Under the pieces are notes generated by a model. That model saw only the letters and a program-made list of their open reading frames with translations, was not told where the DNA came from and ran no database searches. Below, piece after piece: positions 23,227-27,240 of a DNA stretch of 64,000 bases. Each line of letters begins with the position of its first letter. Within the stretch, counting starts at the first letter, position 1. The stretch comes from Actinomadura atramentaria DSM 43919 (GTDB lineage Bacteria > Actinomycetota > Actinomycetes > Streptosporangiales > Streptosporangiaceae): positions 116,454-180,453 of the forward strand of contig NZ_KB907215.1 of assembly GCF_000381885.1 (NCBI RefSeq), given 5' to 3'. The position numbers were made by a program, and so were the translations under genes.

Positions 23227-24135
23227 CTAGTGCGGCAGCGCGTACAGCAGGACGGGGAGGACGGCGATGGCCGGGATGGCGACGGCGGCGGCGAGCCGCG
23301 CGGACCGCCGGACGGGCTTCGGCTCCAGCAGCCGGTTCACCCGCGCCATGACCGGGATGTCGTCGGCCGTCGCGACGCCGAGCGCGCCGCGCGGCGCGGC
23401 GGCGGGCCGGGCGGCGGCGAACCGCAGCAGCGCCGTCGCCAGCTCGCGGGGCGAGCGGTGGCGGCGGGCGCGGTCGTCGGCGGCCATCTCGATGAGCAGT
23501 TCGACGGCGTCCAGGCAGCGCCCGACCAGCCGGATCTGCGGGAAGACCTGCCGCAGCGAGGTGAAGGGCAGCAGGACCAGGTCGTGCCGCTCGCGGGCGT
23601 GCGCGCGCTCGTGCGCGAGGACGGCGGCGAGCTCGTCGGCGTCCAGCAGCGCGAGCGTCCCGGCGCTGACGACGACCTTGGAGGACCGGACCCCCGGGAC
23701 GCAGTACGCCGCCGCGCCCGGGTGGTCGAGGACCAGCGTGCCGGGGACGGCGGAGTCGCGCCGCGAGACCAGCGCGAGGACGGCCCGGTGGCGGCGGCGC
23801 GCCCGCACGACCCGGACGACCGCCCCCATGAGCATGGCCAGCAGCACGACCGTCAGCCCGACGGCCGCGAGCAGCGCCACGACGTGCAGCGTGTCGAGCC
23901 GTCCGGCCTGGTCGGCGAACAGGCCCGGCAGCCCGCCCGCGACGCCCCGGCGGTAGGGCAGCAGGGCGAGCCCGAGCAGCGCGCCGATCGTCGCGGTGCC
24001 CCAGCTCAGCCCGAGCGCCTGCCACAGGGCGATGCCGATGCGCGGCGCGCGCCACGGCCACCGGGCTTTCGACAGCGCGTGCGCTCCCCCGATCGTCGCG
24101 AGCGAGAGCAGGGCGAGCAGCGCCGTTCCGGTCAT
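23227..24135 (-). CDS. M56 family metallopeptidase (BlaR1-like, no sensor domain)
   Basis: A 302-aa membrane zinc protease. It has four or five TM segments (about 3-20, 35-55, 85-110 and 278-300). The cytosolic catalytic site is HERAH (175-179), with a downstream EMAADDRARR region supplying the third ligand. In BlaR1/MecR1 this domain is activated by a C-terminal penicillin-binding sensor; here the protein ends right after the last TM, so the signal must be something else. Start overlaps the blaI-type stop by 4 bp (ATGA). Together they should form a repressor/anti-repressor pair. Confidence 0.92.
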   Translation of the reverse strand: MTGTALLALLSLATIGGAHALSKARWPWRAPRIGIALWQALGLSWGTATIGALLGLALLPYRRGVAGGLPGLFADQAGRLDTLHVVALLAAVGLTVVLLAMLMGAVVRVVRARRRHRAVLALVSRRDSAVPGTLVLDHPGAAAYCVPGVRSSKVVVSAGTLALLDADELAAVLAHERAHARERHDLVLLPFTSLRQVFPQIRLVGRCLDAVELLIEMAADDRARRHRSPRELATALLRFAAARPAAAPRGALGVATADDIPVMARVNRLLEPKPVRRSARLAAAVAIPAIAVLPVLLYALPH

Positions 24136-24518
24136 TCCGGTGGCTCCTTGGCTGAGATGAGGTCGGCGAGGGCCTGCCGAATCACGTCCATCTCATCACG
24201 GGAGACCGATCGGACGAAATGGGCGAGCGCGGCGTCGCGGTCGCCGGTCTCGTTGAGCGCGCCGAGCATCAGCTCGGTGACGTAGCCCTCGCGGCTGGCG
24301 GCGGGGCTGTAGCGCCAGGCCCGGCCGTCGCGGGAGCGGCGGAGGAAGCCCTTCTTGGCGAGGCGGTCGAGCACGGTCATGACGGTGGTGTGGGCGAGGT
24401 CGCGGTCGCCGGCGAGCGCGCGGCTCACGTCGCGCGCGGTGGCGGCTCCGCGGCCGGCGTCCTCCCGATCCCAGAGGACTTCCATGACCGTGCGTTCAAG
24501 CTCTCCTAGACCCTTCAC
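24132..24518 (-). CDS. BlaI/MecI/CopY family repressor
   Basis: A 128-aa winged-helix repressor. The DNA-binding half has GELERTVMEVLW, ATARDVSRAL, HTTVMTVLDRLAKKGFLRRSRDGRAWRY, which is the full family signature. The C-terminal helix (NETGDRDAALAHFVRSVS) is the dimerisation and protease-cleavage region. It is co-transcribed with the M56 protease. Three GTAGTACTAC-type boxes lie between it and the divergent cydA, so it likely represses both itself and cytochrome bd. Confidence 0.94.
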   Translation of the reverse strand: MKGLGELERTVMEVLWDREDAGRGAATARDVSRALAGDRDLAHTTVMTVLDRLAKKGFLRRSRDGRAWRYSPAASREGYVTELMLGALNETGDRDAALAHFVRSVSRDEMDVIRQALADLISAKEPPE

Positions 24519-24560
24519 GACCTCAAGGTTAACCGACTGAGAGGCAAGTCACCACGCCGG

Positions 24561-24600
24561 GTAGTACTACGGGGTTAAGTACTACGGCTCGTAGTACTAC
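24561..24600. promoter_or_regulatory. Three phased BlaI-type boxes (GTAGTACTAC) between blaI and cydA
   Basis: Perfect 10-bp palindromes GTAGTACTAC occur at 24561-24570 and 24591-24600. An 8/10 copy, TAAGTACTAC, lies exactly midway at 24576-24585. Start-to-start spacing is 15 bp both times. BlaI/MecI operators contain a TAC-TA dyad of this kind. The last box ends 10 bp before the cydA ATG, so it must overlap the cydA promoter. Confidence 0.85.
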
Positions 24601-24610
24601 ATTGCGTGGC

Positions 24611-26041
24611 ATGAGCACCGCAGTGCAGTTCCTCGCCGAGGGCGCCGCGACACCGGCCGACTTCGTGGCCGCGCGTCAGCAGATGGCGTTCACCTTGGGG
24701 TTCCACATCGTGCTGGCGTCCATCGGGATCGGACTTCCGGCGCTCACCCTGCTCGCCGAGTGGCGCTCGCTGCGCACCGGCGACCGCGTCTACGCCGAGC
24801 TCGCCCGGCGCTGGATGAAGGCGGCGGGCGTCCTGTTCGCGGTCGGCGCGGTGTCCGGGACCGTCCTGTCCTTCGAGATGGGCACCCTGTGGCCCGGCTT
24901 CATGGACAAGTACGGCCAGGTCTTCGGGGCCGCGTTCGCGATGGAGGGCATCGCCTTCTTCATCGAGGCGATCTTCATGGGGATCTACCTGTACGGCTGG
25001 GACCGGCTGTCCCCGCGCGCGCACTTCCTCACCGGGATTCCCGTCGCCGTCGCCGGGGTGATGTCCGCGACGTTCGTCGTGACCGTCAACTCCTGGATGA
25101 ACCAGCCGCGCGGATTCAGGCTGGTGAACGGGGAGGTCACGGACGTCGATCCGCTGGCCGCGATGTTCAACCCGGCGACGCCGACGCAGGCCGTCCACCT
25201 GATCCTCGCCTCGCTGATGGTCTGCGGGTTCCTCGTCGCGTCGGTGTACGCCGTCGCGCTGCTGCGGGACCGCCGCGCCGGGCGCGTTGACCGCTACCAC
25301 CGGCTCGGCTTCGCGATCCCGTTCACGCTCGGCGCGGTGTGCGCGCCGCTCCAGGTGATCGTCGGGGACTTCGCGTCGCGGTTCGTCGCCGACCACCAGC
25401 CCGCGAAGTTCGCCGCGATGGAGGGCATCGACCACACGCAGGCGGGCGTCCCGTTCAAGTTCGGGGTCATCGAGATCCCGAACATGCTGTCGCTGATGCT
25501 GAAGTTCGACGCGCACGCGACGCTGCGCGGCATGGACTCGATCCCGGCGGACGCCCGGCCGCCCGCCGAGGTCGTCAAGACGTCCTTCGAGATCATGATC
25601 ACGATCGGGATGTTCCTGCTCGCGCTCGCCGCCTGGTGGGGCTTCTCCTGGTTCGTCCGCCGCCGCGCCCTCGGCCGGGGCGGCCGCCTCGCCGCCCGCG
25701 TCGACCTGCCGTGGAAGCCCTGGTTCCTGCGCGCCGCCCTGACGGCCGGCGTCGCCGCGATCATCGCGATGGAGGCGGGCTGGACGACCACCGAGGTCGG
25801 CCGCCAGCCGTGGATCGTGTACGGGGTCATGCGGACGGAAGAGGCCGTCAACCCCAGCTCCGGCCTGCGGTACGGGCTGTACGCGGTGCTCGCCGTCTAC
25901 GCCGTCCTCGGCTTCGCGACCGTCAGCGTCCTCCGCCGGATGCGCCGCCGACCCGAGATCGGGAGCGATCCCGCCGAGCCCGGCGGGCCGTCGCCCGACT
26001 CCGGTTCCGAGCCCGAGATCCCCGTGGGGAGCGCCCGATGA
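24611..26041 (+). CDS. cydA: Cytochrome bd ubiquinol/menaquinol oxidase subunit I
   Basis: The haem-bearing subunit of the high-affinity quinol oxidase, 476 aa with about nine TM helices. His32 in GFHIVLASIG matches the b595 ligand, and His196 (QAVHLIL) and Met387 (AMEAGW) fit the b558 ligands. The GRQPW motif is at 397-401. The quinol-binding Q-loop is short, as in non-enteric enzymes. ATG 24611 is taken as the start; a TTG at 24602 is in frame. No ribosome site lies between the operator and the ATG, suggesting a leaderless transcript. It is coupled to cydB by ATGA. Confidence 0.95.
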   Translation: MSTAVQFLAEGAATPADFVAARQQMAFTLGFHIVLASIGIGLPALTLLAEWRSLRTGDRVYAELARRWMKAAGVLFAVGAVSGTVLSFEMGTLWPGFMDKYGQVFGAAFAMEGIAFFIEAIFMGIYLYGWDRLSPRAHFLTGIPVAVAGVMSATFVVTVNSWMNQPRGFRLVNGEVTDVDPLAAMFNPATPTQAVHLILASLMVCGFLVASVYAVALLRDRRAGRVDRYHRLGFAIPFTLGAVCAPLQVIVGDFASRFVADHQPAKFAAMEGIDHTQAGVPFKFGVIEIPNMLSLMLKFDAHATLRGMDSIPADARPPAEVVKTSFEIMITIGMFLLALAAWWGFSWFVRRRALGRGGRLAARVDLPWKPWFLRAALTAGVAAIIAMEAGWTTTEVGRQPWIVYGVMRTEEAVNPSSGLRYGLYAVLAVYAVLGFATVSVLRRMRRRPEIGSDPAEPGGPSPDSGSEPEIPVGSAR

Positions 26042-26973
26042 GCTACGCCGACGCCGCCCTGGCCCTGATCGTCACCGGACTGTCCGCCTACCTACTGTTC
26101 GGCGGCGCGGACTTCGGCGCGGGCCTCTGGCACATGTTCACCCGCAACCGCCGCACCGACCGCGAGGTCATCGAGCACGCGATGGGGCCGCTGTGGGAGG
26201 CCAACCACGTCTGGCTGATCTTCGTGATGGTCATGACGTGGACCGCGTTCCCGCCCGTCTTCGCCGACATCATGACCGCGCACTGGGTGCCGCTGTCGCT
26301 CGCGGCGCTCGGGATCGTCGCGCGCGGCAGCGCGTTCGTGTTCGCCAAGGCCGTGCCCGACCACGGCGGGCGGTACGGGTGGGTGTTCGGGATCTCGTCC
26401 GTCCTCACGCCGTTCTGCCTCGGCGCCGTCGCGACGGCCATCGCGACCGGCGCGGACGGGTGGCTCTCGCTGGAGGGCCTGTACGGCGGCGCGCTCACCA
26501 CGATGCTGTGCGCCTACCTCGCCGCCGTCTACCTGATCTGGGACGCGCGGCGGCTCGCGGACCAGGACGCGGCGCTGCGGTTCCGCGGGTACGCGCTGCT
26601 GTCGGGCATCGTCGTGGGCGTCCTCGCGCTGCCCGGGGCGGCGGTCTTCGGCGTCCACTCGCCGCTGATCATCGTGTCCGCGGTCGCGGGCGTCGCGTCG
26701 CTGGTCCTGGTCGCCCGGCACCACCTGCTCGCCGTCCGGGTGACGGGCGCGCTCGCCGTCGTGTCGGTGCTGTGGGGCGCGGTCGGCCGCGCCGGCCTCG
26801 ACCTGGACGCCGCCGCCGCGCAGGACGCCGTGCTCCAGGTCGTCTTCGCGGCACTGGGCGTCGGCGCGGTGATCCTCGTGCCGTCGATGCTGTGGATGTT
26901 CGTCCTCTTCCAGCGCTCCGCCCCCGCGACCGCCCCCAACCCCGAACCCGCCGCACCCGCGGAAACCCGATGA
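26038..26973 (+). CDS. cydB: Cytochrome bd oxidase subunit II
   Basis: Partner of CydA, 311 aa with about eight TM helices. The family opening YLLFGGADFGAGLW and the MGPLWEANHVWLIF segment are intact, as is the PSMLWMFVLFQ end. It supports proton-motive force under low oxygen. It starts in the ATGA overlap with cydA. No cydDC transporter genes follow in the window; a strong hairpin terminates the operon 54 bp downstream. Confidence 0.95.
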   Translation: MSYADAALALIVTGLSAYLLFGGADFGAGLWHMFTRNRRTDREVIEHAMGPLWEANHVWLIFVMVMTWTAFPPVFADIMTAHWVPLSLAALGIVARGSAFVFAKAVPDHGGRYGWVFGISSVLTPFCLGAVATAIATGADGWLSLEGLYGGALTTMLCAYLAAVYLIWDARRLADQDAALRFRGYALLSGIVVGVLALPGAAVFGVHSPLIIVSAVAGVASLVLVARHHLLAVRVTGALAVVSVLWGAVGRAGLDLDAAAAQDAVLQVVFAALGVGAVILVPSMLWMFVLFQRSAPATAPNPEPAAPAETR

Positions 26974-27180: not shown

Positions 27181-27240
27181 GACAGCGCTGGACGGCGCTG
27201 GACGGCGCTGGACGGCGCTGGACGGCGCTGGACGGCGCTG
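27181..27240. repeat. 10-bp tandem repeat GACGGCGCTG in a 0.5-kb gene-free gap
   Basis: Five exact copies plus one single-base variant (GACAGCGCTG) are head-to-tail, one unit per helical turn. Degenerate GACGGCGCTGG elements recur at about 27348. The gap from 27068 to 27580 contains no convincing gene on either strand. The last 40 bases before the next gene should contain its promoter, but I see no clear consensus. Confidence 0.93.

Follow-up and report, generated by a model that had tools for sequence, protein, structure and literature searches.

We analysed a window of 64,000 nucleotides of Actinomadura atramentaria DSM 43919 (NZ_KB907215.1, positions 116,454 to 180,453), in which a gene for a BlaI/MecI-type repressor, of a family best known for switching on penicillin resistance, and a gene for a membrane metalloprotease diverge from the cytochrome bd genes cydA and cydB, which lie in one operon. 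The gap between blaI and cydA is occupied by a phased cluster of short palindromes (Table 1).

Table 1. Features of the blaI-cydA locus, with positions counted from the first letter of the window.
Feature	Position	Strand	Description	Basis
Metalloprotease gene	23227..24135	-	Membrane metalloprotease of the M48/M56 type, 302 aa, overlapping the end of blaI; no sensor domain	Peptidase_M48 4e-11; M56 below cut-off; HERAH 175-179 and hydrophobic segments; invariant H175 E176 H179 E216 D220 in 31 sequences
blaI	24132..24518	-	BlaI/MecI-type repressor, 128 aa, GTG start	Penicillinase_R 1.1e-25; best solved relative M. tuberculosis BlaI 2g9w, 3e-26
blaI -10-like	24526..24531	-	TAACCT, 7 nt before GTG	Inference
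Dyad 1	24550..24566	.	CACCACGCCGGGTAGTA, 2 mismatches, overlapping the blaI -35-like element	Dyad search; flank conservation in family blaI promoters
Box 1	24561..24570	.	GTAGTACTAC, perfect	Box search
Dyad 2	24565..24581	.	TACTACGGGGTTAAGTA, 2 mismatches	Dyad search
cydA -35-like	24575..24580	+	TTAAGT, 17-bp spacer, weak	Promoter comparison; inference
Box 2	24576..24585	.	TAAGTACTAC, 8/10	Box search
Dyad 3	24580..24596	.	TACTACGGCTCGTAGTA, perfect	Dyad searches of window and genome
Box 3	24591..24600	.	GTAGTACTAC, perfect	Box search
Dyad 4	24595..24611	.	TACTACATTGCGTGGCA, 2 mismatches, over the cydA -10 and into the start codon	Dyad search; promoter comparison
cydA -10	24598..24603	+	TACATT, 7 nt before ATG (leaderless start inferred)	TACNNT at this place in 25 of 25 promoters
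cydA	24611..26041	+	Cytochrome bd subunit I	Cyt_bd_oxida_I 2.9e-129
cydB	26038..26973	+	Cytochrome bd subunit II	Cyt_bd_oxida_II 1.1e-45

The Penicillinase_R winged-helix domain covered most of the repressor (90.6 bits, residues 4-118). Copper control by a CopY protein was rejected, as the match to the CopY/TcrY repressors, which belong to the same superfamily, was weak (NCBIfam, 42.7 bits against a cut-off of 121.95) and the translation contains no cysteine, so that there is no CopY-type metal site. The protease, described as M56 in the initial annotation, passed the Pfam cut-off only for Peptidase_M48, its M56 score being 21.7 against a cut-off of 31. Its HExxH motif lies within membrane helices, as in BlaR1/MecR1 receptors, but the C-terminal extracellular penicillin-binding sensor domain of those receptors is absent, since the protein ends 3 residues after its last hydrophobic segment (281-299). 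Structural comparison on a model of pLDDT 68 gave Z 5.8 to BlaR1 (8ext) and Z 6.8 to Ste24p (4il3), both within the range of chance matches, and neither a solved-structure search nor Foldseek returned any match at 0.001.

The initial annotation had reported two perfect palindromes and a third 8/10 copy 15 bp apart, the last ending 10 bp before the cydA ATG, and our searches confirmed every element of this description. With up to 2 mismatches, GTAGTACTAC had 9 hits in the window against 2.59 expected, and 1 of 100 shuffles reached 9, so single boxes are only mildly unusual and the phased cluster is the striking part. The 6.71 Mb genome holds 7 perfect boxes, of which two are at this locus and two more are 15 bp apart at a second locus. 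The boxes are better read as junctions of overlapping 17-bp dyads, TACTAC-N5-GTAGTA. With up to 3 mismatches this dyad had 8 hits in the window against 0.99 expected, with 0 of 100 shuffles reaching 8, and four of the hits step by 15 bp across the gap. Genome-wide, however, the looser dyad pattern was no commoner than its reversed control (6 against 6) and too loose for a list of the regulon, and the strict pattern was only moderately commoner in 46 genomes (40 against 27).

To better understand how this site is distributed, we compared blaI and cydA upstream regions across genomes. In the family of this genome, the dyad flanks were conserved in 28 of 30 blaI promoters, and the other two (loci L065 and L066) kept one dyad without the box. 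All 30 close loci with a divergent cydA had phased boxes, against 9 of 39 without, although these are related species and the 9 exceptions keep several boxes. Outside the family, blaI and cydA diverged within 400 bp in 26 of 49 genomes, and 20 of 20 blaI|cydA gaps from five other families held an exact dyad, with 0.12 expected. The site was also found at cydA genes unlinked to blaI, in 10 of 10 mycobacterial cydA promoters and, as boxes, in 38 of 40 upstream regions of a distant cydA class (class III, judged from the window CydA and from corrected proteins) located elsewhere in family genomes. In contrast, it was present in 0 of 24 upstream regions of another class (class II) and in 0 of 10 cydA promoters of family f18, where only weak BlaI matches exist. 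A TACNNT -10 was located 7 nt before the cydA start in 25 of 25 promoters, inside the last dyad. The association was not complete, as 11 of 80 BlaI loci (L148-L158) had neither box nor dyad upstream of blaI and 7 of 20 blaI promoters of other families lacked a dyad by the strict pattern, and related species inflate the counts.

These results strongly support that the BlaI/protease pair is tied to cytochrome bd, and we consider the following model likely, though not certain. BlaI dimers would bind the array of four overlapping dyads, which covers the promoter and start codon of a probably leaderless cydA and the -35 of blaI, so that BlaI would repress both the cytochrome bd operon and its own operon by blocking RNA polymerase. 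The membrane metalloprotease, which lacks the beta-lactam sensor of BlaR1, would remove BlaI when its membrane part senses a membrane or respiratory change, and cydAB would be switched on. The identities of the genes, the array, and the conservation of the site at blaI and cydA across families rest on direct sequence evidence, whereas binding by BlaI as a dimer, repression, the leaderless start and inactivation of BlaI by proteolysis are inferred. The reading given in the initial annotation, of a BlaI/M56 pair controlling a terminal oxidase, was partly upheld: its central idea, that the pair is tied to cytochrome bd, is strongly supported by comparative genomics, but by the flank comparison the 10-bp palindrome is not the operator unit, there are four dyads, one reaching the blaI -35 and one the cydA start codon, and the inferred control is not special to this locus, since the same site marks unlinked cydA genes, mycobacterial cydA and other redox genes. 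The membrane or respiratory stress that it proposed as the signal remains a guess.

Among the alternatives, a cell-wall or beta-lactam response that happens to include cytochrome bd, rather than a respiratory sensor, is unlikely but survives best. In M. tuberculosis, amoxicillin plus clavulanate raised both blaI-blaR and cydAB expression (PMC5473688), but the protease studied here has no penicillin-binding domain, and two of the three strict dyads in this genome other than chance candidates are located at cydA and at a ResA/CcdA-type operon, the third being at a WhiB-type gene. Two further alternatives appear less likely still, and about equally so. In the first, implied by the initial annotation, the 10-bp palindrome is itself the operator, with one dimer per box. 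The box is indeed the most conserved stretch, and single boxes remain upstream of blaI where cydA is absent, but such single boxes have conserved half-sites exactly 5 bp away on both sides, L065 and L066 keep a dyad without the box, and other families show isolated dyads. In the second, another regulator binds these sites and controls both blaI and cydA. The assignment to this BlaI rests on sequence alone, the genome holds three BlaI-family proteins, so another paralogue could be the binder, and a WhiB-type gene also carries the sites; against this, the site is located at blaI itself across families, resembles the dyad geometry of BlaI/MecI operators, and is missing at cydA in f18. That blaI and cydA are neighbours by descent only, the sites serving blaI autoregulation, is very unlikely. 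A single box at blaI suffices where cydA is absent, but unlinked cydA genes carry the same sites and extra boxes accompany cydA.

Among the closest known systems is BlaI/BlaR of M. tuberculosis (Rv1846c/Rv1845c), in which BlaR also lacks the beta-lactam sensor and BlaI acts on ATP synthase genes, and mycobacterial cydA promoters carry the dyad. There, blaI is not next to cydA (0 of 10 genomes of family f4), and the blaI promoter has isolated dyads, not the overlapping array. Staphylococcal BlaI/BlaR1 and MecI/MecR1 share the repressor fold family (MecI, 7.4e-05) and the adjacent metalloprotease, and their operator, TACTAC-N4-GTAGTA, is similar. They differ from the system described here in that the latter has no penicillin-binding sensor domain, no beta-lactamase neighbour at this locus, cytochrome bd as its inferred target, a 5-bp spacer and overlapping dyads. 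BlaI control of mycobacterial ATP synthase has been published (PMC12565901), and PMC5473688 states, citing Sala 2009, that BlaI binds cytochrome bd promoters, but we found no account of the class-wide operator or of the array. PMC7735108, PMC10581053 and PMC8765290 proved irrelevant, as their 'BlaI' hits were names or other words, and in-word matching of TACTAC and GTAGTA in papers gave only noise.

Cytochrome bd is the back-up oxidase that lets actinobacteria, including mycobacteria, live when the main oxidase is blocked. A BlaI-type site conserved at cydA in nine family groups (f1, f3, f4, f17, f19, f26, f28, f36 and f42), with a sensor-less protease as partner, gives a concrete candidate regulator and makes the old puzzle of what a BlaR without a beta-lactam sensor detects directly testable, and the overlapping-dyad array is an unusual operator design. 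More tentatively, and somewhat less likely than not, BlaI with a sensor-less membrane protease may be an ancestral actinobacterial sensor of respiratory-chain state whose core target is cytochrome bd, with cytochrome c maturation, a Rieske-type protein and a WhiB-type protein as co-targets in this family, and beta-lactamase control may be a later use of the same module.

Locus L239, the only tandem-box hit outside the family, had no cyd, WhiB-type or BlaI match. The box at C5:310278 (locus L002) lies beside an unidentified gene.

The three boxes described in the initial annotation were confirmed, the first and third being perfect and the second matching at 8 of 10 positions, with starts 15 bp apart and the last box ending 10 bp before the cydA ATG. 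The identities of BlaI, the metalloprotease, CydA and CydB were confirmed by profile searches, although the protease, which had been named as an M56 protein, passed only the M48 cut-off and not that of M56. The 6.71 Mb genome encodes three BlaI-family proteins, and the nearest named relatives of the BlaI at this locus are mostly from Actinomadura.

Positions of the genes, the putative operator elements and other sequence features (positions in the window unless a genome and contig are given; G000 is the genome studied here)
Feature	Position	Strand	Remarks
blaI	24132-24518	minus	
Metalloprotease gene	23227-24135	minus	
cydA	24611-26041		ATG at 24611
cydB	26038-26973		
Box 1	24561-24570		perfect
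Box 2	24576-24585		8 of 10 matches
Box 3	24591-24600		perfect
Dyad 1	start 24550		2 mismatches
Dyad 2	start 24565		2 mismatches
Dyad 3	start 24580		0 mismatches
Dyad 4	start 24595		2 mismatches
Head-to-tail repeats	27190-27239		five copies of GGACGGCGCT, downstream of cydB
Two boxes, locus L003	G000:C6:185323-185347		15 bp apart, between a divergent WhiB-type gene and a GNAT acetyltransferase gene
Perfect dyad, locus L379	G000:C6:369144-369160		near position 1501 of L379, just upstream of a ResA-type and CcdA-type gene pair
Short CydA-like gene near blaI, genome G266 of family f37	L310 and G266:C1:3504010		about 1.1 kb downstream of blaI, on the same strand

To better define the putative operator, we compared blaI promoters of the same family. 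In 28 of 30 promoters, GTAGTACTAC (up to 1 mismatch) was flanked exactly 5 bp away on both sides by conserved half-sites (C 28/28, A 25/28 and C 23/28 upstream; G 24/28, T 27/28 and G 26/28 downstream), whereas the spacers were not conserved. The other two promoters (loci L065 and L066) kept one dyad, TACTAC-GGGGC-GTAGTG, and no box. Isolated dyads were also found upstream of blaI in other families (numbered here with the prefix f), in which a strict pattern was met in 13 of the 20 promoters fetched, namely in f4 (5 of 6), f19 (3 of 3), f26 (2 of 2), f42 and f28 (1 of 1 each) and f17 (1 of 3), but not in f37 (0 of 2), f33 (0 of 1) or f18 (0 of 1). So the unit of the putative operator is a 17-bp dyad, and the box is the junction where neighbouring dyads share two bases. 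Four such dyads lie in the array, and the window as a whole contains 8 hits with up to 3 mismatches against 0.99 expected, with 0 of 100 shuffles reaching 8.

Comparison of the cydA promoters showed that, in the window and 24 relatives (25 of 25), a TACNNT hexamer is located exactly 7 nt before the cydA start codon, inside the last dyad, with a weak -35-like element at the middle box and a 17-bp spacer. The T in the otherwise unconserved dyad spacer fits a -10 element. On the blaI side, a -10-like TAACCT lies 7 nt before the GTG start codon, and the -35-like element falls in the first dyad. Leaderless starts are inferred for these transcripts, and BlaI bound to the array would block both promoters.

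Gene-context analysis further shows that the sites follow cytochrome bd within the family. Of 80 named BlaI loci, all 69 closer ones (L079-L147) carry a box upstream of blaI, while the 11 more distant ones (L148-L158), whose BlaI proteins are 62-68% identical and accompanied by the protease partner, carry neither box nor dyad. Among the 69, all 30 with divergent cydA have several phased boxes, whereas of the 39 without it, 30 have one box and 9 keep several (Fisher p of 8e-12, a value inflated by relatedness among the genomes). In two of those nine (L103 and L121), the boxes are kept but cydA is gone, and cydB follows the boxes directly. We then searched 27 whole genomes, chosen from the 80 mostly because cydA was not beside blaI, and found that a very different cydA located elsewhere (about 30% identical, class III) carries a dyad in 19 of the 21 class-III loci fetched. 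In a separate set of 40 class-III upstream regions, taken in order of E-value, 38 have a perfect box and 32 have two or more, each of the 32 with a 15-bp pair, whereas 0.45% of shuffles have any box. A further class of cydA (about 57% identical, class II) has none, 0 of 24.

Outside the family, the tandem form TAGTACTAC-N5-GTAGTACTA (up to 1 mismatch) is nearly absent, as it was found in 35 of 394 class genomes, 34 of them in the family. The dyad and the gene order are not so confined. In the genomes outside the family that appeared in both of our incomplete lists of BlaI and CydA matches, blaI and cydA diverge within 400 bp in 26 of 49, including f19 (11/11), f26 (6/6), f36 (4/4), f28 (1/1), f3 (1/1) and f17 (3/10, with 3 more at 627-867 bp), but not f4 (0/10) or six other families (0/6). 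Twenty gaps between blaI and cydA, from f19, f26, f36, f3 and f17, were fetched, and 20 of 20 hold an exact TWCKAC-N5-GTMGWA, with 0.12 regions expected at up to 1 mismatch. In f4, taken as mycobacterial because the BlaI proteins of two members match M. tuberculosis BlaI 2g9w at 6.5e-62 and 5.9e-65, 10 of 10 cydA promoters hold an exact dyad although blaI is elsewhere. In f18, which has only weak BlaI matches, 0 of 10 do.

The protease is 302 aa long, with HERAH at residues 175-179 and no room for a sensor, and its catalytic residues are invariant in 31 relatives. The AlphaFold model is mediocre (pLDDT 68), and a second-look alignment placed Ste24p (Z 6.8) and BlaR1 residues 2-276 (Z 5.8) near the top, within the range where chance matches occur.

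In M. tuberculosis, BlaI represses Rv1303 of the ATP synthase operon (PMC12565901; PMC5874750). Mycobacterial BlaR lacks the sensor, and BlaI is said to bind cytochrome bd and ATP synthase promoters, citing Sala 2009 (PMC5473688); the abstract of Sala 2009 reportedly lists five loci without cyd. The blaR gene scored as essential for growth on heme (PMC7058343) and is described as essential in wild type (PMC5148154). The BlaI-type regulator is of a known kind. Our literature searches gave no account of a class-wide BlaI operator at cydA or of the overlapping array. The interpretation in the initial annotation, that the BlaI and protease pair seems built to control a terminal oxidase, is partly supported: the link between BlaI and cytochrome bd is well supported by conservation, while the molecular steps, including binding of BlaI to the array, are inferred. 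This arrangement likely has a wider meaning for actinobacterial respiration.

Other candidate targets were sought with the strict dyad TACTAC-N5-GTAGTA, which occurs three times in this genome: in the array studied here, between a divergent WhiB-type gene and a GNAT gene, and just upstream of a thioredoxin-fold (ResA-type) gene followed by a CcdA-type gene, a pair associated with cytochrome c maturation. Of 46 family genomes, 22 have the strict dyad, with 40 sites in sum against 27 for the reversed pattern, so the count alone is weak evidence. Beside the 34 strict-dyad loci examined (L378, L379 and L381-L412) lie cydA (5), WhiB-type genes (3), ResA plus CcdA types (3, L379, L398 and L411), Rieske-type proteins (6), two kinds of small membrane protein (8 and 5), FAD-dependent enzymes (2, one assigned by eye) and others (2). 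These extra targets are leads rather than results. The secreted Rieske-type proteins, whose genes lie downstream of strict dyads in several genera (L385, L389, L397, L399, L400 and L405), were recognized by N-terminal resemblance, and the one tested matched Rieske at 3.4e-15. The small membrane proteins, of about 111 and 121 aa, whose genes also lie downstream of strict dyads (L387, L388, L391, L403 and L406-L409; L390, L392, L394, L395 and L404), gave no Pfam match when one of each kind was tested. Tandem boxes in the gap between the WhiB-type and GNAT genes recur in many genera (L219-L236), and boxes or dyads are also located upstream of a FAD-dependent monooxygenase-like gene in several genomes (L226, L256, L258, L410 and L001).
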